From Planctomycetota bacterium (GTDB lineage Bacteria; Planctomycetota; Phycisphaerae; UBA1845; PWPN01): 12,184 bases of DNA. Within the stretch, counting starts at the first letter, position 1. The number at the start of each line of letters is the position of its first letter. A program made the position numbers and the translations under genes. Under the pieces are notes generated by a model that searched no databases, was not told where the DNA came from, and saw only the letters and a program-made list of their open reading frames with translations. The DNA lies in NCBI GenBank assembly GCA_016209665.1, contig JACQVT010000043.1, forward strand, positions 1-12,184, written 5' to 3'. Below are positions 2,019 through 12,184 of the stretch, one piece after another.

Positions 2019-3566
2019 ATGGCACGACTGGCCTTCAAACCTGATTCATCGTTCTTTCGGAAGATCGCGATGGGAGCGGTTGGGAGTCGCGCGGTCTGCG
2101 CGGACCTGCACAAGCTCGGGCACCGTATGGCGGAACTCGAACGCGGGTCCACCGATACCAAGCTCTGGAAGGACGTAAAACGCAAACGCGTTCGCATCCC
2201 CGACCTCGTCTGCACCCGTTGTGGTCTTCGAATTGAGAGCCGAGCCAAAACGAGTCCTGAACTCTCGATGTCTCACAGTCCGGCCGAAGAGGCTCGGGCG
2301 TGGGATTTTGGCATGGTAGATCGAGACCTGATCGCGTTTCCAGTGTGCGAAGCAGCGGAAGAGACCTATTGGAGCACTGGTCGTCTGTCCAGTGTTCTCT
2401 CGTATTGGCACGAACGCAATTGGGTTCGCTGGCAGCCCAAGGAATGCATCAATTACTTCGAGGTTCGGGCCTTCCGAGCCACGCCCCACTTGAAGAGCAG
2501 CACCAAGGGTGTAACCGAGGGATCCGAAACCTCGATCTCTTGGGGGGCCACATTCTCATCGCGAACCGGCGTGGTGGAGGTGGTAGCCGACGATCGGATC
2601 ACTATTCGTCGAACATCAGACGACCACCGTCACACTTGGCGGCTCGGTAGCGGAGTGAAACCTGCGGTCCAAACCGGGGAGACAGTCCTAGAGAATCAAG
2701 TCATCGCCTGTGCGGTGGAGCCGATACCTCGACAGACCCTGCGCTGTCAGGGCGAACTCCCGAACGATGCGATCGGCGAGATGCTCTCATCGCGCGAGCG
2801 AACCCTGCGTTTCACTGGTGTCAAACTCGCCCGGCTCCGCCACGACCCCGGCTTCGAGGCTCAGGTTCGCGATATCGCAGCCGACCAGGATGAGGACGCC
2901 TCTATCCGACTTGAAGGAGCGTCATATCTCACGGCCGTTTGCGGTTCCAGGCTTCAGCAGCTCTTCTCGCCCTATCTCTGCAGCGCTGATCCGCAGACCC
3001 AGCTTGAGGCCGTGATCGCGGCCGGGGAAGCCGGGACCCCGGAGGCCGTGGAGGTCCTCGGTCAAGTCATCGATGCAGTCGATTGTCCCTTTTTTCTGCG
3101 GACTGCGGCCGCATGGTCACTCGGCAAGGTCGCTTCGCCCGAGGCTGTTAACCGTCTCATCCGTGCCTTCGCTGACGTCGATCATGGTATTCGGCAGGAA
3201 GCGTTGGATGGCATCATCTCCATAGGAGGCCCTGCGATCCCGCTCCTGCTATTGGGACTCCGCGAGGCCGACGACTCCATTGCCGCCGGCTGTGCCGAAT
3301 CCCTTCGCCAATTGCCCGAACTCCCAGATGAGGTGGTGTCCACCGTGGTTAGTGACCTCAAAACCGGCGCGTCCTCACCATGGGCTACCTGGCTTGTCGG
3401 TATGCTTCCGCGTGAGCGAGTCGCATCTGCTGTTGCTGATCTACAGTCCTCAGCCCCCGATTTGCACTATGCCGTCAGCCTCTTGTGGAGTTTCGTTGAG
3501 AGTTGGATATCGCGCCGATGGGAGACTCAATCTCTCCCGCCGCAGGAGAAACTACGTGGAATTTGA
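2019..3566 (+). CDS. HEAT-repeat protein with possible nuclease-like N-terminal domain; candidate restriction partner of the adjacent methyltransferase
   Basis: 515 residues from an ATG with AGGA 11 bases upstream (2004-2007). Residues 51-86 are rich in conserved-looking residues: KRKRVRIPDLVC, a CTRC pair (C65, C68), then RIESRAK and SMSH. P61-D62 followed by E73 and K77 resembles a PD-(D/E)xK active site, but the spacing at the end (E-S-R-A-K) is not canonical. Residues about 90-245 are mixed alpha/beta with several Trp and Tyr. Residues about 255-490 are helical HEAT-like repeats, for example around 325-350, 358-385 and 388-415. There is no signal peptide and no membrane segment, so it should be cytoplasmic. 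The gene overlaps the M.PvuII-like methyltransferase by 11 bases, as R and M genes often do. Known R.PvuII is a small enzyme of a different build, so if this is the cognate nuclease it is a different type. It could alternatively be a regulatory or targeting subunit. Confidence 0.8.
   Translation: MARLAFKPDSSFFRKIAMGAVGSRAVCADLHKLGHRMAELERGSTDTKLWKDVKRKRVRIPDLVCTRCGLRIESRAKTSPELSMSHSPAEEARAWDFGMVDRDLIAFPVCEAAEETYWSTGRLSSVLSYWHERNWVRWQPKECINYFEVRAFRATPHLKSSTKGVTEGSETSISWGATFSSRTGVVEVVADDRITIRRTSDDHRHTWRLGSGVKPAVQTGETVLENQVIACAVEPIPRQTLRCQGELPNDAIGEMLSSRERTLRFTGVKLARLRHDPGFEAQVRDIAADQDEDASIRLEGASYLTAVCGSRLQQLFSPYLCSADPQTQLEAVIAAGEAGTPEAVEVLGQVIDAVDCPFFLRTAAAWSLGKVASPEAVNRLIRAFADVDHGIRQEALDGIISIGGPAIPLLLLGLREADDSIAAGCAESLRQLPELPDEVVSTVVSDLKTGASSPWATWLVGMLPRERVASAVADLQSSAPDLHYAVSLLWSFVESWISRRWETQSLPPQEKLRGI
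3544..3548 (+). promoter_or_regulatory. Ribosome binding site that fixes the methyltransferase start
   Basis: AGGAG lies 7 bases before a GTG at 3556 and inside the 3' end of the HEAT-repeat gene. This favours GTG 3556 over the distant ATG at 3280, which would put about 90 residues out of frame inside the upstream gene, and over the ATG at 3580. Translational coupling of the two genes is likely. Confidence 0.75.
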
Positions 3567-4560
3567 CCTTCCTGAATCCATGATTGCGTATCGTACTCGG
3601 CTAGGCGTCCAAGCGTGCAGCGACAGCAGGGATATCCTCCGTCTACTACCTGCGAAGTCCATCGACCTGATCATCACGAGTCCACCGTTCGCCTTGCTCC
3701 GAAAGAAAACCTACGGCAACAAAGACCAGGACAGTTACGTCAATTGGCTCCTGGAGTTTGGCCAAGCCGCCTTGAAGCCTCTTAAAGATACGGGCAGCTT
3801 TGTCCTCGACCTCGGCGGCGCGTATCAGCGAGGTAAGCCTGTCCGCTCGCTCTACAACTTTCGTGTCCTTATCGAGTTCTGCGATGCTCTCGGCTATCGT
3901 CTTGCCGAGGAGTTCTTCTGGTACAACCCGGCCAAGCTTCCTTCGCCAATTGAGTGGGTCAACAAACGTAAACTGCGGGCGAAGGATGCCGTCAACACGG
4001 TGTGGTGGTTGTCCAAAACCGATAATCCCAAGGCTGACGTAACTCGGGTGCTGACAGCCTACTCTCATCGCATGAAGACGCTGCTGAAGAATCCTGCGAA
4101 GTTCTACACGCCCAGGGAACGGCCATCGGGCCACGACATTGCGGACAGCTTCGGCAGGTCCGGCAACGGCGGCGCGATTCCATCAAACCTTCTCCAAATC
4201 CCGAATACCGACAGCAACTCGCACTATTTACGAACCTGTAAGGCTTTGGGCCGCGGGAGCCATCCTGCTCGATTCCCCGCGGACTTGCCTCGCTTCTTCA
4301 TTCGCTTCTTGACAGACCCGGGAGATTTGGTCGTCGACATCTTTTCCGGATCAAACACGACCGGCTACGTCGCCGAGGAACTCGGTCGACAATGGTTAAG
4401 CGTGGAAATCGATCGGCATTGCGCGGCACTGTCTGTCGTCCGATTCATGGAGTCCGAGAACACCCAAATGATCCGGGATCACATCCATGCAATCGAAGCT
4501 GGCCACACCATCATGCTTAAGGCCCCGCGTGTCAGTGCTCAACCTGCACTGTTTTACTGA
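3556..4560 (+). CDS. DNA N4-cytosine methyltransferase, M.PvuII-like (beta class)
   Basis: 334 residues from the GTG start, about the length of M.PvuII. Catalytic motif IV is TSPPF at 41-45, typical of N4-cytosine enzymes, and is followed by ALLRKKTYGN. The AdoMet-binding motif I comes late (VVDIFSGSNTTG, about 259-270), the beta-class order. LPSPIEWVNKRK (128-139), KDAVNTVWW (143-151), RPSGHDI (189-195) and HPARFPADLP (236-245) correspond, as far as I remember it, almost block by block to M.PvuII, which methylates the inner cytosine of CAGCTG. The same target is therefore likely but not proven. It would protect host DNA against a cognate nuclease; the only candidate nearby is the HEAT-repeat protein it overlaps. 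No R.PvuII-like or C-protein gene is visible. GC content is lower than in the flanking genes, consistent with transfer. Confidence 0.9.
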   Translation: MEFDLPESMIAYRTRLGVQACSDSRDILRLLPAKSIDLIITSPPFALLRKKTYGNKDQDSYVNWLLEFGQAALKPLKDTGSFVLDLGGAYQRGKPVRSLYNFRVLIEFCDALGYRLAEEFFWYNPAKLPSPIEWVNKRKLRAKDAVNTVWWLSKTDNPKADVTRVLTAYSHRMKTLLKNPAKFYTPRERPSGHDIADSFGRSGNGGAIPSNLLQIPNTDSNSHYLRTCKALGRGSHPARFPADLPRFFIRFLTDPGDLVVDIFSGSNTTGYVAEELGRQWLSVEIDRHCAALSVVRFMESENTQMIRDHIHAIEAGHTIMLKAPRVSAQPALFY

Positions 4561-4569
4561 GCCGCACGA

Positions 4570-4691
4570 TTGTCGCCAGCGGCGGAGCGCCGAAGGTTCG
4601 CGCGGAAGGCGTCGGGGCCGACCTGGTCGCGGGTCGACCGCAAGGAGTCGCGGAGATTCCCGGAGGCGAGCTTGAGGTAGGCGTCGTCGTC
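4570..4691 (-). pseudogene. Decayed internal fragment of the NTF2-like gene at 6879-7334
   Basis: These 122 bases align without gaps to 7078-7199 with about 16 differences by hand count (roughly 87% identity). Read on the - strand they keep the protein string DDDAYLKLASGNL and the near-identical RDQVGPDAFRANLRRSAAG. The N-terminal membrane segment and the C-terminal half are absent, so it cannot be a working copy even though a 82-codon frame (4554-4802) runs through it. It lies between the convergent methyltransferase and secreted-protein genes. The intact copy lies on the other side of the secreted-protein gene, in the same orientation. Confidence 0.85.
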
Positions 4692-4758
4692 AAGCGTGGC
4701 TGGCATCATGCCGCGTAGTTTGTAGCACCTCCGCGCGAGCGTTGACCACTGCGGGTAC

Positions 4759-6411
4759 CTACTCACAATCGATGCAAACACCTTCGCACGTACCCCAAGC
4801 ACAGGCGGTCTGGTCCGGGCATACGCTCCCGCAGGCGCCGCAGTTGCCGCTGTCCCACATCAGATCAACGCACGCCCCACCACAGTCCGTCAGCCCCGAG
4901 GGGCAGGGGCAGTTCGGATCGGCCGGGTTGTCCGTACCGCTGTAGCAGCGCTGGAAGGACCCGAAGTCGTCGCTATCCGCGTCGCCATCTGAATCCGCGT
5001 CGGCCCGCAGGCAATCGCTGCTCCCGTCGTGCGAGATCGAGGGTCCCGAGCCGCATCCCTCAAAGACCTCGAAGTCGGCCAGGTCCACGTCGCCGTCGCG
5101 GTCGAAGTCGAAGCGGATGAACGGCGGACATCCCGTCGCATCCACCGTTGCACCCGGCACCGTGTTCGGGCACAGGTCGGACCCGTCCTCCACGCCGTCG
5201 CCGTCCGCGTCCGCCACGCCGCAGTCTACGGTCACTTGAATGAAGTAGGGGAAGGAGTTGTCGCCGAGGTTCCAAGTGGCGCCCGCGTCGCTTGAGTCCG
5301 CGAAATTACCCAGGATGCCGGGGCCGGTAAAGAGGTTCGTGTCCGCATACGACCAGTCGTACGTCCCTGCGTTCGACGAGCCCAGCACGAACCAGTACGT
5401 CTGGGAAGCGAGCAGCGTGACCGCGCCGTCCGGCGTGAACAGTCGCGCACTCGTGGCCCCGGACATGTCAGGGGCGGTGAAGGTGGTGAGCAGGCCGCCG
5501 GGCGTCACGTCGATCCCCCCATTGATGTCGGCCTTGCGCAGCTCGGCCACCACCTGTGGAGAATCCGCGCCGTTGCCGACGATGGCCTCGATGGAAACGA
5601 GCCGGCGATCGTTGGCGTCGGGCTGGAACGCTTGGGCCCCCCAGTATTGGGGGTTGGCAATCGGCGTGTCGGCGCGAAACGGCTCGCTCAGGTTGCTGAC
5701 CAGCACGGGCTCGTTGCAGCACGAGGTCGCGGTGCATTCCGAGTTGTCGCCGAGATAGGTCCCGCCGAACTCGACTTCACAGTTGAGGAGATCGATGTTG
5801 GGAATGCATGCGCCGCTGCCCAGGCAGCACGCCCCGGTGGGCAGGGCGTAGTTGACCTGAATGAAGTAGGGGAAGGAGTTATCGCCGAGGTTCCAAGTGG
5901 CGCCCGCGTCGCTTGAGTCGGCGAAATTACCCAGGATGCCGGGCCCGGTATAGAAGTTCGTGTCCGCATACGACCAGTCGTATGTCCCGTCATTCGACGA
6001 ACCCAGCACGAACCAATACGTTTGGGAAGCCAGCAGGGTGACCGCGCTGTCCGGTGTGAACAGTCGCACACTCGAGGCCCCCGACATGTCCGGGGCGGTG
6101 AAGGTGGTGAGCAGACCGCCGGGCGTCACGTCGATCCCCCCGTTGATGTCGGACTTGCGGAGTTCCGCCACCACCTGTGGCGCGTTCGCGCCGTTGCCGA
6201 CGATCGCCTCGATGGAACTGAGCGGGCGGTCGTTGGCGTCGGGCTGGAACGCTTGGGCTCCCCAATACTGGGGGTTGGCGATCGGCGTAGCGGCACGAAA
6301 CGGCTCGCTCAAGTTGCTGACCAGCACGGCTTCGGCCAACGCGGAGGAAGACCCCGCGGCGGCGATCGCCAAAAGCACAGTACTCAGCAGCCGACATCGG
6401 TACATAGTCAT
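4759..6411 (-). CDS. Secreted multidomain protein: duplicated anchor-type domain, TGACC motif, calcium-loop and dockerin-like segments, Cys-rich tail
   Basis: 550 residues from ATG 6411, with AAGGA (6421-6425) 9 bases upstream; the second ATG at 6405 is also possible. Residues 1-26 form a signal peptide ending ALA. Residues 29-187 and 236-394 are two near-identical copies of a beta-rich domain (NLSEPFRA, YWGAQAFQPDAND, TYWFVLGSSN) that resembles the 'choice-of-anchor' domains of secreted planctomycete proteins. A linker at 192-231 has TGACCLGSGACI. Residues 400-428 are a thrombospondin-3-like calcium loop (DADGDGVEDGSDLCP). Residues 434-492 hold two Asp-rich repeats, DFDRDGDVDLADF and DADSDGDADSDDF, like a type I dockerin pair. 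Residues 500-550 carry about ten cysteines (CGGACVD, GNCGACGSVC). No enzyme motif and no PEP-CTERM anchor is present. An extracellular binding or structural role fits; the ligand is unknown. Confidence 0.85.
   Translation of the reverse strand: MTMYRCRLLSTVLLAIAAAGSSSALAEAVLVSNLSEPFRAATPIANPQYWGAQAFQPDANDRPLSSIEAIVGNGANAPQVVAELRKSDINGGIDVTPGGLLTTFTAPDMSGASSVRLFTPDSAVTLLASQTYWFVLGSSNDGTYDWSYADTNFYTGPGILGNFADSSDAGATWNLGDNSFPYFIQVNYALPTGACCLGSGACIPNIDLLNCEVEFGGTYLGDNSECTATSCCNEPVLVSNLSEPFRADTPIANPQYWGAQAFQPDANDRRLVSIEAIVGNGADSPQVVAELRKADINGGIDVTPGGLLTTFTAPDMSGATSARLFTPDGAVTLLASQTYWFVLGSSNAGTYDWSYADTNLFTGPGILGNFADSSDAGATWNLGDNSFPYFIQVTVDCGVADADGDGVEDGSDLCPNTVPGATVDATGCPPFIRFDFDRDGDVDLADFEVFEGCGSGPSISHDGSSDCLRADADSDGDADSDDFGSFQRCYSGTDNPADPNCPCPSGLTDCGGACVDLMWDSGNCGACGSVCPDQTACAWGTCEGVCIDCE
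5237..5708. repeat. Long internal direct repeat, copy proximal to the 3' end of the gene
   Basis: About 472 bp, repeated 621 bp further right at 5858-6329 with roughly 90% identity on visual comparison and no gaps seen. It encodes residues 236-394 of the secreted protein. The two copies encode nearly the same protein, for example FADSSDAGATWNLGDNSFPY in both. Confidence 0.85.
5858..6329. repeat. Long internal direct repeat, copy proximal to the signal peptide
   Basis: Partner of 5237-5708, encoding residues 29-187. The spacer between the copies (5709-5857) encodes the TGACC cysteine linker, which is not repeated, so the duplicated unit is only the anchor-type domain (207-codon period). Confidence 0.85.
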
Positions 6412-6878: not shown

Positions 6879-7334
6879 CTAGTCGTCGTAGACCGGGGTG
6901 CCGTAAGTTTTGGCGGGTTTGGTGGCCAGGGCGGTGTCGATGGAGGCGATGACCCAGCCGCCTGGCTGGCGGGCGAGGAGCATCTGCTGACGTTCGTTGC
7001 GGTCGGCGAAGACAATCTCGACTTCGAGGGTGACGAAGTCAGCACCGGCGTCAGGCCGACGGGTGACGGCCAGGCCCTTGATGCCGGCGGCGGAGCGGCG
7101 AAGATTCGCGCGGAAGGCGTCGGGGCCGACCTGGTCGCGGGCCGAGCGCAGTGTGTCAAGAAGGTTGCCGGAGACGAGCTTGAGGTAGGCGTCGTCGTCG
7201 CCGCGGCCGGCGGCATCGAAGAAGGCTGAGACCGTGTCCTCCGGCGTCTTGGGCAGTTCGTCGCGGCGGCGAAGCACCACGGCCAGCACGACGATGCCGA
7301 ACACGACCACGACCTGCACGGCCCGACGCTTCAT
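6879..7334 (-). CDS. Small membrane-anchored NTF2-like (DUF4878-type) protein
   Basis: 151 residues from ATG 7334, which overlaps the stop of the preceding HflK-like gene as ATGA (7331-7334). Residues 1-23 are MKRR followed by a hydrophobic stretch VVVVFGIVVLAVV, a membrane anchor with no lipobox. Residues 30-145 (TPEDTVSAFFDAAGRGDDDAYLKL, then beta-rich VTLEVEIVFA and GGWVIASID) have the layout of NTF2/DUF4878-like domains, which bind small ligands or stabilise complexes; no catalytic residues can be named. It is the last gene of the - strand operon, so it is likely a partner of the SPFH proteins at the membrane. An internal fragment of it is duplicated at 4570-4691. Family assignment is moderate; the operon position is clear. 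Confidence 0.85.
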   Translation of the reverse strand: MKRRAVQVVVVFGIVVLAVVLRRRDELPKTPEDTVSAFFDAAGRGDDDAYLKLVSGNLLDTLRSARDQVGPDAFRANLRRSAAGIKGLAVTRRPDAGADFVTLEVEIVFADRNERQQMLLARQPGGWVIASIDTALATKPAKTYGTPVYDD

Positions 7335-8429: not shown

Positions 8430-9326
8430 CTATTTCGTTGCCGGCTTGTCCTCCAGCATCGAGCCTCGGGTCAGGAACTTGAGCAGATCCGAATCGGCCG
8501 ACAGCAGGATCGTCGTCTTCTCGTCCAGGAACTTGCGGTAGGCCTCCAGCGTCCGCAGCAGTTCGTAGAACTTCGGGTCCTGCTTGTGGGCCTCGCTGTA
8601 GATTCGCGTGGCCTCGGCTTCGCCCTCGCCGCGCATCTGCTCGGCCTTGGCGTAGGCGTCGGCGAGGAGGATCGTCCGCTCCTTGTCGGCGGCGGCGCGG
8701 ATTTTCATCGCCTCCTCCTCGCCCTCGGCCCGGTAGCGGCGCACCATGCGGGCCCGCTCGGCCCGCATCCGCTGGAAGACGCTGTCGCGGACCTGGGCGG
8801 GCGGGGCGATGCGCTTGAGACGCACGTCGACGATGTCGATCCCGTAGGCCGACCGCGACCGCGCGGCGCACCGACCGGCCACGGTCTTCATGATCTCGTC
8901 CAGCCGGTGGACCTTAGGATCGACCGACAGCATGGCGTCCAGGGGGCTGCGGCCGATCTCCGCCGCCAACTCCGACCAGACGATGTCGTGGATGCGGGCC
9001 TCGGCGCCGGTGAATTCGTTGACCGCCTCGATGAACCGGCGAGGCTCGCCCACCCGCCAGCAGACGAATGCGTCGAGGTCGACGTTCTTCTTCTCGCTGG
9101 TCAGAAACTCGGACGGACGCGGGTTGTAGATCTGCAAGCGCCGGTCGATGCGGATGAGCGACTGATAGGGCGGCTTGACGTACAGGCCGGCGGTCTCAAG
9201 CGTGCGGACGGGCCGGCCGAACTGCGTGACGATCACCACCTCCGTCTCATCGACGAAGATGAAACTGCGGACGGCCGCCACGACGGCCAGGATAAGCACG
9301 ATCAGGATGATCCATCGACGTTTCAT
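8430..9326 (-). CDS. hflC: HflC-like SPFH/band 7 membrane protein
   Basis: 298 residues from ATG 9326, which overlaps the stop of the ATPase-SPFH fusion as ATGA (9323-9326); GGAG lies 11 bases upstream within that gene. Residues 7-20 form a membrane segment after MKRRW. The SPFH domain covers about 21-185 with the HflC-like start FIFVDETEVVIVTQFGRPV, then GLYVKPPYQSLIRIDRRLQIY, LTSEKKNVDLDAFVCWRV and GIDIVDVRLKRI. Residues 186-250 form the charged helix (RYRAEGEEEAMKIRAAADKE), and the C-terminal end has YELLRTLEAYRKFLDEKTTI, as in HflC. It most likely pairs with one or both HflK-like proteins in this operon. Confidence 0.92.
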   Translation of the reverse strand: MKRRWIILIVLILAVVAAVRSFIFVDETEVVIVTQFGRPVRTLETAGLYVKPPYQSLIRIDRRLQIYNPRPSEFLTSEKKNVDLDAFVCWRVGEPRRFIEAVNEFTGAEARIHDIVWSELAAEIGRSPLDAMLSVDPKVHRLDEIMKTVAGRCAARSRSAYGIDIVDVRLKRIAPPAQVRDSVFQRMRAERARMVRRYRAEGEEEAMKIRAAADKERTILLADAYAKAEQMRGEGEAEATRIYSEAHKQDPKFYELLRTLEAYRKFLDEKTTILLSADSDLLKFLTRGSMLEDKPATK

Positions 9327-12184
9327 GGTCTTGGGTTCTCCCCGGTTGGGGTGACGGGCGGGGTCGGTTCCGGCATCAGGCCGGGAGCGAAGCTGCGGAC
9401 GCCCTCGCCCTCGAGAAACAACCTCCGATGGCCGCCGTCCAGCGCGCGGTCGAGAATGATCTTGCGTCGGCCCGCCAGCAGTTGCTCGATCGTCTGCAAG
9501 TAGAGACGCAGACGGGTGAGTGCCGGGTCAGCACCGGCGGCCTTGGCGATCGCGAGTAACCGCCCGGCGCTGCCCTGGGCCCGCCGCGTGCGCTCCTCGC
9601 GGAAGGCCTGAGCGGCGAGCACCTTCTCGTCGGATTGACCGCGGGCGAGGGCCTGGGCCTCGAACTGGTAGGCCTCGGCCTCGTTGATCTGGGCTTCCTT
9701 CTCTTCCTGGGCGCCGGCGACCTCGCGGTAGGCGGGTACGACCTCGACGGGTGGATGCACATCACCCAGGCAGACGTCTTCGATCCTCAAGCCGGTGCGG
9801 TACTCGTCGAGGGCGGCGGCGATCCGTTCGCGGATAGCCGCTTCCAGCTCCGCTCGCTGTGACGCCAGGATCGCCTCGCTCGACCGCCGCGACATCTCCG
9901 CCCGCAGGCCGGCCTCGGCCACACCCCGCACGAGGGCGTCCCACTTGCTCGTGCCGTCCGTCATCGACTCGCCGACGGTGAACAACGCCTGCAAGGGATC
10001 GACGATGCGGTAGTGGGCGATCATCCGGACGTCGACGAGGTTCTCGTCGCCGGTCAGGAGATCGGCCTCGCCCGGCTCGGCCTGTGTGCGGCCCGCGCGG
10101 TGCTGGACGTTCCATTCGTAGGCCGGCACGTCGGCCGACGCGCCCGCGACGGTACGGAACCCGACCTCGACCCGCCACTGTTCGCCGATCCGCACGATGC
10201 GGTGGCGGCCGAACGGATAGGGCAACCGATACTGCAGGCCGGGCGTCTCGGGGGCCCCCGCAAGCTTGCCGAACCGCTGGACCACGGCGACCTCGCCCAC
10301 GCGGACGGCGTGGACTCCAGTCAGGACGTACGTTGCCGCGGCCACGACTGCTGCGCCGGCTGTTGCCTGCCGCCAGCGCCGCCGGCAGGTGGCTTGCACG
10401 TGTTCCCAGCGGGACCGCCAGCGGCCGGCGTCGATCAGCAGCCGCATCGAGTTGAGCACCACGGTGAGCGAACTCGCCTGGTGCACGATCGCCGCCGCCA
10501 CCGGCGCGATCCAACCGACGGCGGCGCCGGCTACGGTCACCACGTTGAACACCAAGGCGAAACCAATGATGTTTTGTCGGATGATCCGCAAGGCCCGACG
10601 GCCGAGGGCGAGGGCTTCGGGCAGCTTGCGCAGGTCGCCGCCCACCAGGATCAGCCCGGCGGACGCGATGGCCACGTCGGTGCCGATGTCGGCCATGGCC
10701 ACGCCCACGTCGGCGGCCACGAGCGACGGAGCGTCATTGATGCCGTCGCCGACCATCGCCACGGAGCCGGCCGCGCCTTGCAGCTTGCGGATGGCCTCGA
10801 CCTTGTCGGCGGGCAGCAACCCGCTGCGGACGTCGTCCAGCCCCACGGCGCGGGCGACCGACCGGGCCGCCGCCTCGTTGTCGCCGGTGAGCATGGCGAT
10901 GCGGTCGATGCCCAGGTGCCGCAGGTCGTGGATCGCGGCGTGGGCCTCGGGGCGAACGGTGTCCTCCACCGCGATCGCGCCGGCGACCTGACCGCCCCTC
11001 GCGACGAGTACGACCGTGCAGCCATGCCGTGCCGCCTCGTCGATGCGGGCTCCGAACTCCGGCGGCAGGGCCACTCCCTCCGTGATGAACCGCGGGTTTC
11101 CAACGCGGACCCGTTGTCCATCGACGGTGGCCTCGGCACCCAGGCCGGGGTGGGCCAGGAATCCGGTGGCCTCGGCCAATGGGATCTCGCGTCGGTTCGC
11201 TTCCTCGACGATGAGTTGACCGACCAGGTGCTCGGAATGACGCTCGACCGAGGCGGCCAGCCGCAAGACTTCGGCTTCGTCCTGGCCCGGCGCGGGGATT
11301 GTCCGCGACACCCGCAGCCTGGCCAGTGTCAACGTGCCGGTCTTGTCGAACACGACCGACCGCAACCGACCGATCTGTTCGAGGACGTTGCCGCCGCTGA
11401 CCAGCACGCCCCGGCACGCCAGCCGACCGATGCCCGCCGCAATGGCCGTGGGTGTGGCCAACACCAGCGCGCATGGGCAGGCGATCACCAACACCGCCAC
11501 CGACCGGACGACCGCCCCCGTCCACCAGTACACCAAGGCGGCAATCACCAGCACCGCGGGCACAAACCAGGTCGCATAGCGGTCGGCCAGGCGCTGAACG
11601 GGGGCCTTGGTCGCCTCGGCGTGCTCGACCAGGTGAATGATCCGCTCGAGCGTCGTGTCCGCGCTGAGCCGTTCGACCGCAACCTCGAGGGCTCCGTTGA
11701 GGTTGAGCGTGCCGGCGAAGACCTCGTCGCCCGCCGCCTTGTCCGCGGGCAACGATTCGCCCGTGATGGCGCTCTGATCGATGGACGAGCTGCCGCGGAT
11801 GACTCGGCCATCCACGGGGACGCGATCGCCGGGCCGCAGAATGACCAGGTCGTCGGGATGAATCTCGTCGACGGGCACGACGTGCTCGTGGCCGTGCCGC
11901 AGCACGCGGGCCTCGTGGGGGCACAGGGCCAGCAGCGAGGCGATGCCGGATCGCGTCCGGCCGATGGCGAAGTTCTCGAGCGCCCCGCCGATCAGCATGA
12001 TGAAGATGACTTCGGCGGCCACGGCGTACTGCCCGATCCACAGGGCCGCGAACGCCGCCAGCGTCACCGCGAGGTCCGCGGTGATCTTCCCTCGCACCAG
12101 CGAGTTGACCACGCCGAGATAGATCGGCAGCCCGCCCACCAGCGCCAGCAGCATGGCCAAGTCGAACCCATAGACGGCCCGTAC
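9323..12184 (-). CDS. P1B-type heavy-metal ATPase fused to an HflK-like SPFH protein (5' truncated)
   Basis: The frame is open to the right edge; the first usable start in the window is TTG 12160 (945 residues), so the true start, and any N-terminal metal-binding domain, lies outside. Counted from that TTG: membrane segments at 3-22 and 28-63, A domain with TGES (133-136), membrane segments 198-218 and 221-243 with the metal-site CPC (228-230), phosphorylation motif DKTGT (272-276), TGDN (425-428), GDGIND (471-476) and two last membrane segments 531-550 and 551-572. A short basic linker leads to a further membrane segment (601-619) and an SPFH domain (about 620-815) with the HflK signature LTGDENLVDVRMIAHYRIVD, then a charged helix and a Pro-rich tail. 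No stop or frameshift separates the two halves. The ATPase would export or import a soft metal (Cu, Zn or similar). The usual HP dipeptide of the N domain reads HL here (311-312). Confidence 0.9.
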   Translation of the reverse strand, partial: VRAVYGFDLAMLLALVGGLPIYLGVVNSLVRGKITADLAVTLAAFAALWIGQYAVAAEVIFIMLIGGALENFAIGRTRSGIASLLALCPHEARVLRHGHEHVVPVDEIHPDDLVILRPGDRVPVDGRVIRGSSSIDQSAITGESLPADKAAGDEVFAGTLNLNGALEVAVERLSADTTLERIIHLVEHAEATKAPVQRLADRYATWFVPAVLVIAALVYWWTGAVVRSVAVLVIACPCALVLATPTAIAAGIGRLACRGVLVSGGNVLEQIGRLRSVVFDKTGTLTLARLRVSRTIPAPGQDEAEVLRLAASVERHSEHLVGQLIVEEANRREIPLAEATGFLAHPGLGAEATVDGQRVRVGNPRFITEGVALPPEFGARIDEAARHGCTVVLVARGGQVAGAIAVEDTVRPEAHAAIHDLRHLGIDRIAMLTGDNEAAARSVARAVGLDDVRSGLLPADKVEAIRKLQGAAGSVAMVGDGINDAPSLVAADVGVAMADIGTDVAIASAGLILVGGDLRKLPEALALGRRALRIIRQNIIGFALVFNVVTVAGAAVGWIAPVAAAIVHQASSLTVVLNSMRLLIDAGRWRSRWEHVQATCRRRWRQATAGAAVVAAATYVLTGVHAVRVGEVAVVQRFGKLAGAPETPGLQYRLPYPFGRHRIVRIGEQWRVEVGFRTVAGASADVPAYEWNVQHRAGRTQAEPGEADLLTGDENLVDVRMIAHYRIVDPLQALFTVGESMTDGTSKWDALVRGVAEAGLRAEMSRRSSEAILASQRAELEAAIRERIAAALDEYRTGLRIEDVCLGDVHPPVEVVPAYREVAGAQEEKEAQINEAEAYQFEAQALARGQSDEKVLAAQAFREERTRRAQGSAGRLLAIAKAAGADPALTRLRLYLQTIEQLLAGRRKIILDRALDGGHRRLFLEGEGVRSFAPGLMPEPTPPVTPTGENPRP

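Follow-up and report, generated by a model that had tools for sequence, protein, structure and literature searches.

The fusion gene and its operon

The window, by which we mean the whole stretch of 12,184 nucleotides that was analysed and which equals the entire contig C460, encodes a P1B-type heavy-metal ATPase that runs in frame into an SPFH protein of the HflK kind, here HflK1. Downstream on the same strand lie genes for HflC, for a second HflK without a transporter (HflK2) and for a small membrane protein (gene D). The features are as follows.

9323..12184, minus strand: fused P1B-type ATPase/HflK1 SPFH protein; 953 aa fall within the window, and the start from contig C229 brings it to about 983 aa
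10436..12184, minus strand: ATPase part, residues 1-583, with membrane helices and A, P and N domains (AlphaFold2 model, Foldseek)
11753..11764, minus strand: TGES of the A domain (motif in the sequence)
11471..11479, minus strand: CPC metal site in M4, kept in 41/41 aligned fused ATPases
11333..11347, minus strand: DKTGT phosphorylation motif, its Asp kept in 40/41 aligned fused ATPases
10733..10750, minus strand: GDGIND hinge motif (motif in the sequence and alignment)
10469..10483, minus strand: HQASS in M6, an unusual metal-site motif; most relatives have HQ followed by SS, AS or GS
10316..10435, minus strand: linker and ninth transmembrane helix, residues 584-623 (model helices 586-602 and 604-621)
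9671..10306, minus strand: SPFH/Band_7 domain of HflK1, residues 627-838 (Pfam, phmmer)
10100..10114, minus strand: WNVQH (W691...H695), in an insert that HflK1 proteins retain when they accompany a P1B ATPase
9755..9757, minus strand: H810 in the DVHPP motif, which HflK1 retains when linked to an ATPase or to SO_0444
9449..9670, minus strand: long and C-terminal helices as in HflK, residues 839-912 (model, phmmer)
8430..9326, minus strand: HflC, 298 aa
7331..8323, minus strand: HflK2, 330 aa (TIGR01933, 202 bits, cut-off 159)
6879..7334, minus strand: gene D, a 151-aa membrane-anchored NTF2-like protein (model pLDDT 90.8)

The covalent ATPase-SPFH fusion is real. Its 953 codons inside the window form a single open frame without stops, along which the Pfam domains follow one another in the order E1-E2_ATPase (1.1e-59), Hydrolase (2.8e-31) and Band_7/SPFH (1.6e-22). 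The contig edge truncates the frame at its 5' end, and the first 30 codons or so are located on the next contig, C229. In a comparison of the contigs, the last 45 bases of the window were the first 45 of C229, the reverse strand of which adds a start codon and MLTWLKDSHRRHLLLTLLVGAGLAAYLTGS in frame with the fusion. Close homologues are 984-985 aa long, as compared with the approximately 983 aa counted here. An assembly artefact was ruled out since the fusion was found again in many separate assemblies. The in-frame fusion described in the earlier note is thereby borne out, and so is its neighbouring HflC-like protein (TIGR01932, 202 bits, cut-off 134).

The fusion and hflC share 4 bases at their stop and start, and gene D likewise begins within the last 4 bases of hflK2. 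Matches of gene D in the PDB were weak (best 8e-4; a YbjP lipoprotein on a TolC pump, 1.3e-3), and we take it only as NTF2-like. Inspection by eye revealed no metal-responsive regulator beside the operon in the window.

The ATPase part

The best Foldseek match to the ATPase part was the zinc P1B ATPase 4umw (TMt 0.84, 38% identity), and with 587.2 bits it belongs to the heavy-metal ATPases of NCBIfam TIGR01525 (cut-off 346.25). Judging from the model, eight membrane helices are expected, the first of them encoded on C229. All five core motifs listed in the earlier note are present (TGES, CPC, DKTGT, TGDN and GDGIND, the fourth as LTGDN). The catalytic motifs are near invariant across 109 homologues and were present in 40-41 of 41 aligned fused ATPases, an alignment in which acidobacterial rows were thinned and 10 duplicate or near-duplicate rows dropped. 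P1B-type ATPases are also recognised by an HP motif in their N domain; at this position the window has SEHL, at least 90% of the 109 homologues have SEHP and the other fused ATPases vary. No Pfam match to an HMA domain was obtained at the N terminus.

Subgroups of P1B ATPases are told apart by their M6 motifs, which are MxxSS in the copper pumps of P1B-1, DxG in the zinc pumps of P1B-2 and HEGxT in the cobalt pumps of P1B-4. None of the three is found in M6 of the window's pump. A copper-specific reading was not adopted because M6 carries HQASS. The exported metal would probably be a soft or borderline ion, such as Zn, Cu or one like them.

The SPFH part

With 80.8 bits for PF01145 (gathering score 23.6), the C-terminal part is a member of the SPFH superfamily. 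HflK of the solved HflK/C structure matches both its SPFH and its C-terminal helical region (phmmer, 2e-24). The designation HflK-like given earlier is right, whereas HflK in the strict sense is not, because the fusion scores 146.6 on TIGR01933, just below the curated cut-off of 159.4; the ATPase fusion of another locus (L041) scores 189.4. The ninth helix would put the SPFH part at the outer face of the membrane.

Histidines of the SPFH part vary with the type of partner in a comparison of HflK1 proteins, the 26 'standalone' rows of which included about five that are HflC-like. Those tied to some partner types are candidate metal contacts, and they may also have been inherited with the SPFH lineage and not selected for metal. 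The loop with W691 and H695 has low confidence in the AlphaFold2 model.

Recurrence of the fusion

The search for the same domain pair in other genomes proposed in the earlier note was productive. PF00702 and PF01145 were both present in 120/120 homologues of permitted length among the matches listed, the window's entry included, which is not a frequency since the length filter excludes unfused HflK proteins of about 330 aa. The best 80 SPFH loci in genomes comprised 63 with an ATPase in the same frame, 1 with an ATPase in another, overlapping frame (L102), 10 with a CDF exporter, 1 with an SO_0444-family exporter, 4 without a transporter and 1 cut at the 5' end. Some of the 63 are cut by a contig end, and two of them (L074 and L091) have a frame break within the ATPase part. 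Among the matches listed, the ATPase-SPFH fusion was verified in at least 9 of 392 sampled genomes. Where database entries are named, ATPase fusions are called 'cation-translocating P-type ATPase family protein' or 'HflK protein', and CDF fusions often 'FtsH protease activity modulator HflK'.

The fusion is usually the first gene of an operon; HflC and a second HflK follow pump-HflK1, and in many cases so does a small NTF2-like membrane protein. The order HflK-HflC-HflK was observed at 60 of the 63 ATPase loci of the scan, at 9 of the 10 CDF loci and at the one SO_0444 locus, and all the remaining ATPase and CDF loci reach a contig end. Three of the four plain loci have room for the triad and hold HflK-HflC only. 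Gene D follows HflK2 in 41 of the 53 ATPase-fused loci with room and was not found in the other 12.

An obligatory HflK1-HflC-HflK2 triad is ruled out by five solitary fusions (L151, L152 and L171-L173) with neither HflC nor a second HflK within the fetched flanks. All five share one ATPase subclade, the other two fetched members of which have the triad. An ordinary HflK/C complex could be their partner, since a separate HflK-type locus was found in 4/4 searched genomes of the five. Eighteen regions were hand-picked for their SPFH or ATPase frames; in one batch of eight of them, two (L123 and L124) had an ATPase without an SPFH gene.

In the ATPase tree, inferred from the thinned alignment, 41 fused rows and the split L102 formed one clade (SH-aLRT 95), consistent with one origin of the fused ATPases. 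At eight fetched loci, the SPFH triad lies beside a separate P1B ATPase, and these ATPases belong to a different clade, which rules out one common origin for all ATPase-SPFH links. Fused and adjacent unfused forms thus both occur, and homologues are not always two separate genes, the outcome that the earlier note had named as counting against a fusion.

Other exporters on the same SPFH module

In some lineages the fusion partner of an HflK1 of the same kind is a CDF exporter, in others an SO_0444-family (SO_0444/ArsP_1) Cu/Zn exporter, as identified with Pfam and NCBIfam, and a single transporter type on the SPFH module is thereby ruled out. Homologue searches for the CDF and the SO_0444 fusions each gave both domains in 119/120 proteins among the matches listed. 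One locus, L146, has a CDF exporter on an SPFH part of the ATPase-associated type (support 96/81, in a tree for which the bootstrap had not settled and about five HflC-like 'standalone' rows were left out). By NF033936, two SO_0444-SPFH fusions from operons of the same type (401 and 350 bits, cut-off 300) belong to the SO_0444 Cu/Zn efflux family, a transporter family that differs from the P1B ATPase of the window. SO_0444 of Shewanella is needed under Zn and Cu stress, and the accessible part of the paper describes it as a membrane protein and leaves an SPFH part unmentioned (PMC3219624). Fusions in three exporter families, together with triads beside P1B ATPases of another clade, show that SPFH proteins have been joined to metal exporters repeatedly, in apparently independent events.

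Comparison with known systems

None of the papers listed by literature searches describes a metal exporter-SPFH fusion, in line with the earlier note, which knew of no characterised protein of this build. The ATPase part shares its core fold and motifs with ZntA and CopA, P1B-type heavy-metal ATPases; unlike these, it has a C-terminal SPFH part, HQASS in M6 and no HMA match. For the SPFH part, the closest precedent found is the dome built by stomatin, which faces the cytosol. Such domes enclose aquaporin-1 (AQP1) and the urea transporter UT-B, according to the accessible part of the study (PMC12407830), and thus resemble the arrangement proposed here in placing an SPFH dome over a membrane transporter. 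They differ in that the oligomer is a eukaryotic stomatin and the cargo consists of channels that are not covalently joined to it, whereas the fusion, known from genes and a monomer model, carries an ATP-driven metal pump. In E. coli, HflK/HflC surrounds FtsH, according to the accessible part of that report (PMC12048511). The likeness to this complex includes aligned SPFH and C-terminal helices, an adjoining hflC and the inferred outer-face orientation. In contrast, the fusion bears a pump where HflK has a short cytoplasmic N terminus, and its operon has a second HflK, with no ftsH in the related loci.

Proposed metal export into an SPFH assembly

Our best reading, to which we give a probability of about 0.5, is that these genes encode a metal exporter with a permanent link to an SPFH assembly, which would receive or shield the metal at the outer face of the inner membrane. 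The ring or dome is inferred from the HflK/C cages around FtsH and the stomatin domes around transporters. The eight-helix pump would end in the cytoplasm and the ninth helix span the membrane; on the outer side of the inner membrane, the SPFH part would form this ring or dome together with HflC and HflK2. By mixing with the pump-bearing subunit, unfused HflK2 would leave one or a few pumps per ring. Exported metal would enter the space below the dome and not the open periplasm, and might there be held, passed on or released under control. The SPFH-organised metal transport suggested in the earlier note is strengthened, because exporters of two further families, CDF and SO_0444, carry an SPFH module of this kind. 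The five solitary fusions, and the 12 fused loci in which gene D was not found, weigh against the reading.

The SPFH part could instead be a sorting or stability tag, which would direct the pump to a membrane microdomain or keep it stable while neither closing into a dome nor handling exported metal. Descriptions of SPFH proteins as scaffolds of microdomains are widespread in the accessible parts of the literature, and the five solitary fusions do without HflC and HflK2 of their own. We regard such a tag as rather unlikely: the helical and C-terminal part typical of HflK persists in the fusion, nearly all ATPase loci of the scan also encode HflC and HflK2, the SPFH histidines change with the partner, and a preference for metal exporters is not expected of a mere tag.

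A second alternative is that the complex is an FtsH-holding HflK/C cage, in which the pump supplies a metal input to the control of FtsH. HflK1, HflC and HflK2 are related to the proteins that hold FtsH, which is encoded in 11/11 genomes searched, and the solitary fusions may associate with a separate HflK/C. We consider this improbable, as FtsH is encoded elsewhere in these genomes: a search with the FtsH sequence from the window's genome detected no ftsH in the window, in C229 or in 101 related loci, some of them short. Moreover, the partner varies among metal exporters, and in 8 of the 11 genomes an additional HflK-type match (at least 80 bits) lies outside the operon and could serve FtsH. 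The metal-dependent control of FtsH-type quality control envisaged in the earlier note thus found no support. That the ATPase part is a metal sensor for the SPFH complex with hardly any transport would fit the missing HMA match and the SEHL at the HP motif, varied in relatives, and is very improbable given that the motifs for phosphorylation, hinge and dephosphorylation hardly vary and that export is the feature in common, since the CDF and SO_0444 versions have no ATPase.

Implications

Extending the reading of an exporter attached to an SPFH assembly to all three families, we suggest more tentatively that bacteria may have built 'export domes' repeatedly, SPFH shells with a built-in P1B, CDF or SO_0444 exporter that would deliver metal into a ligand-bearing compartment before the periplasm. 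Here the SPFH partner is written into the gene, and the apparently independent fusions yield metal exporters each time. Database names conceal these fusions. Whether SPFH domes compartmentalise transport is a general question that becomes directly testable with one operon. The findings suggest that some bacteria send metals out via a purpose-built shell, and the fusions hint at an unrecognised step of bacterial metal export, between the pump and the periplasm.

The fusion gene and its conservation

The source genome is fragmented (940 contigs, 77.6% complete), and the window is an entire contig, C460. The in-frame link between a P1B metal ATPase and an HflK-like SPFH part, proposed in the earlier note, was borne out: 9323-12184 on the minus strand is a single stop-free frame that carries E1-E2_ATPase, Hydrolase and Band_7 domains. 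The 5' end is truncated by the contig edge, and a neighbouring contig of the same genome, C229, has exactly 45 bases in common with C460 and gives a start about 30 residues upstream. The fusion scored 587 bits against the heavy-metal ATPase model (cut-off 346) and 146.6 against the HflK model, which is below the cut-off of 159.4. It is followed, with a 4-base overlap, by HflC (202 bits) and then by a second HflK (HflK2, 202 bits) and a 151-aa protein, here called gene D. On C229, a 133-aa ORF (228-629 of region L116, minus strand) lies directly upstream of the fusion and appears to encode a VapC-type PIN-domain protein.

Using fusion residues 560-953 as the query, 184 proteins were found. The domain pair that the earlier note proposed to seek elsewhere, ATPase Hydrolase plus Band_7, was present in 120 of the 120 matches listed (the window's own entry among them), in a search that was unable to reveal unfused HflK because its hits were restricted to 0.55-1.75 times the 953-aa length. 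The motifs TGES, CPC, DKTGT, MVGDGINDAPS and HQxSSLxVVLNS were near invariant among 109 full-length homologues, and the N-domain motif is SEHL in the window's fusion versus SEHP in at least 90% of homologues. One fused ATPase (L039, 3632-6508) has GKTGT for DKTGT and IGES for TGES, and is possibly inactive or affected by a sequence error.

The AlphaFold2 model of the 953-aa fusion (mean pLDDT 77.9, pTM 0.51) places the ATPase domains first, followed by a short helix (586-602), a helix at 604-621, the SPFH domain, a long helix (813-884) and a C-terminal helix. Its top PDB match was the zinc P1B ATPase 4umw (TMt 0.84 over 582 columns, 38% identity), and by sequence the SPFH part matched HflK of solved HflK/C complexes (E 2e-24), reaching into the C-terminal helix. 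Counting the first helix, which is encoded on C229, the pump would span the membrane eight times and end in the cytoplasm, and helix 604-621 would therefore place the SPFH domain at the outer face, where HflK also has it.

Two further observations concern other parts of the window. A secreted-looking 550-aa protein (4759-6411, minus) contains an internally duplicated segment (300 bases at 92%) and ends in a weak STIG1-like match. On the plus strand (2019-4560), the ORFs of a HEAT-repeat protein and of a DNA methylase containing an N6/N4 methylase domain overlap.

Other exporters joined to SPFH modules

Seven SPFH pieces served as queries for the genome scan, and of 144 confirmed loci the 80 best were retained. 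ATPase sequence lay in the SPFH frame in 63 of these 80 and in a different frame in one (L102); ten had an N-terminal CDF transporter, one an SO_0444-type permease and four no transporter, and one was cut at the 5' end. The ATPase-fused loci were labelled mostly Planctomycetota and Acidobacteriota (many Bryobacterales), and one Lentisphaeria; the few labels from other groups may reflect mis-binning. Judging by the names of its homologues, the window too probably comes from Planctomycetota.

Cation_efflux (Pfam) was found in seven scanned CDF fusions and in L146, a further CDF fusion, and ArsP_1 (Pfam) in four loci (L098, L145, L147, L148). By NCBIfam, the ArsP_1 part belongs to the SO_0444 family of Cu/Zn efflux transporters in both scanned proteins (401 and 350 bits, cut-off 300); according to PMC3219624, Shewanella requires SO_0444 to grow when stressed by zinc or copper. 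Searches with one CDF fusion and one SO_0444 fusion gave 528 and 4560 proteins, respectively, at E 1e-3 or better, both domains being present in 119 of the 120 matches listed for each; unfused relatives may be among the remaining matches. In L145 and L147, the gene immediately upstream of the SO_0444 fusion encodes a ZIP zinc transporter, and the homologous SO_0444-SPFH protein P0285 has a ZIP domain within the same protein.

A separate P1B ATPase followed the triad HflK1-HflC-HflK2 in six of eight regions of one set (L117-L122, three of which belong to the same class as the window), and triad and ATPase had the same order in L149 and L150. The other two regions of the set, L123 and L124, contained ATPases and no SPFH gene. 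Since these regions were hand-picked (an SPFH frame near an ATPase, a long frame, or the surroundings of a separate ATPase), they show the existence of this form, not its commonness. Both fused and adjacent forms exist, so homologues do not always occur as two separate genes, the pattern that the earlier note said would refute its reading. ABC-transporter genes then follow in L117 by Pfam and, by eye, in others, and an ArsP_1 gene lies upstream in L149. In L117-L122, HflK1 begins with about 300 aa to which no library gave a name. In HflK1 of the adjacent type (L117 2512-4569; also L119, L121, L149 and L150) this N-terminal part measures about 280-320 aa; Pfam matched it in none of the five scanned and NCBIfam did not match it in L117. 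It is possibly another transporter or membrane partner.

In a tree of 73 ATPases retained after thinning (41 fused, 9 adjacent, 23 separate), all fused ATPases and the split L102 formed one group (SH-aLRT 95), and the other eight adjacent ATPases with one further gene, present twice in the set, formed a different clade (support 100). The SPFH tree contained 93 rows, with supports given as bootstrap/SH-aLRT and a bootstrap that had not settled. ATPase-linked HflK1 grouped together (81/94), with CDF fusion L146 nested inside, next to an ATPase fusion (96/81); a further 14 CDF fusions formed a group (88/95), CDF fusion L093, labelled Altiarchaeota, was placed with ordinary HflK (99/95), and the SO_0444 fusions grouped (86/92). 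We read these groupings, some of them modestly supported, as a minimum of five joining events: one for P1B, three for CDF and one for SO_0444, with the adjacent P1B lineage in addition.

Operon composition and solitary fusions

The order HflK-HflC-HflK was present in 60 of the 63 ATPase-fused scan loci, in nine of the ten CDF loci and in the SO_0444 locus, the four exceptions all ending at a contig edge. The four plain loci had HflK-HflC only, three of them with ample room. A second HflK thus accompanies the transporter in the scan loci. Counter-evidence comes from the sampled genomes, where five of nine fusions checked were solitary, with neither HflC nor a second HflK in flanks of several kilobases.

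Solitary fusions (L171, L172 and L173 are the surroundings of fusions in genomes G325, G198 and G357)
L151, 6460-9729, solitary fusion
L152, 3816-7229, solitary fusion
L171, 6916-10203, solitary fusion
L172, 7375-10836, solitary fusion
L173, 7004-10276, solitary fusion

All five belong to a single ATPase subclade; the triad is present in L153 and L154, the two remaining members of it that were fetched.

Among loci where the sequence continued for more than 700 bases, gene D followed HflK2 in 41 of 53 ATPase-fused loci and in 0 of 25 others. Its model shows a helix anchor and an NTF2-like fold (pLDDT 90.8), with weak PDB matches. A 122-base stretch of gene D (7078-7199) recurs about 2.5 kb away at 4570-4691 with 87% identity, within a short ORF (4554-4802, minus) that resembles a fragment of a second copy.

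FtsH over the cut-off was encoded in 11 of 11 genomes with fusion or operon genes of the kinds described here. Searched with the FtsH of the window's genome (E 1e-5), it was found in none of 101 related loci, nor in the window or C229, a negative that covers near neighbours only because many of the loci do not reach 10 kb; the same search did recover the locus of the query itself. A further HflK-type match of at least 80 bits away from the operon or fusion was present in 8 of the 11 genomes (two over the model's cut-off); G045 had weak further matches only, and none was found in G036 or in the incomplete genome of the window.

Conserved histidines in the SPFH part

W691 and H695, located in an insert, were kept in 109/109 and 62/63 ATPase-fused proteins and in 8/8 HflK1 of triads beside a separate ATPase; their positions were gaps in 119/119 SO_0444 and 118/118 CDF fusions. 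The planctomycete L146, nested among the ATPase types, was apparently the sole one of eight CDF loci with W691/H695. H810 was kept in the same 109/109 and 62/63 ATPase-fused proteins, in 119/119 SO_0444 fusions and in 8/8 adjacent-type HflK1, in 0/118 CDF fusions and 0/26 standalone rows, and in 2/8 CDF and 2/5 plain loci. Metal binding by these histidines is a proposal, since the standalone rows align poorly at the insert (H there in 2/26) and the pattern could also stem from common descent of the SPFH lineages.

A possible exporter-bearing dome

Among the open-licence papers searched, none described, in the opening part of its abstract, a fusion between a metal transporter and an SPFH protein, and a word search of the available text of the prokaryotic SPFH survey PMC2636767 gave no ATPase, efflux, permease, transporter or metal. 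The earlier note had suggested metal control of FtsH quality control or SPFH-organised metal transport; what fits throughout is an SPFH protein with a metal exporter attached. FtsH is held by HflK/C, as described in PMC12048511, and stomatin domes hold AQP1 and UT-B, in what PMC12407830 terms membrane-bound microcompartments. By analogy, the fusions may form an arrangement like that of HflK/C or the stomatin dome with the metal exporter built in. Solitary fusions would need to form rings alone or together with the genome's separate HflK/C. Where HflK2 is present, it may set the number of pumps per ring, and the dome would be the first destination of the exported metal.
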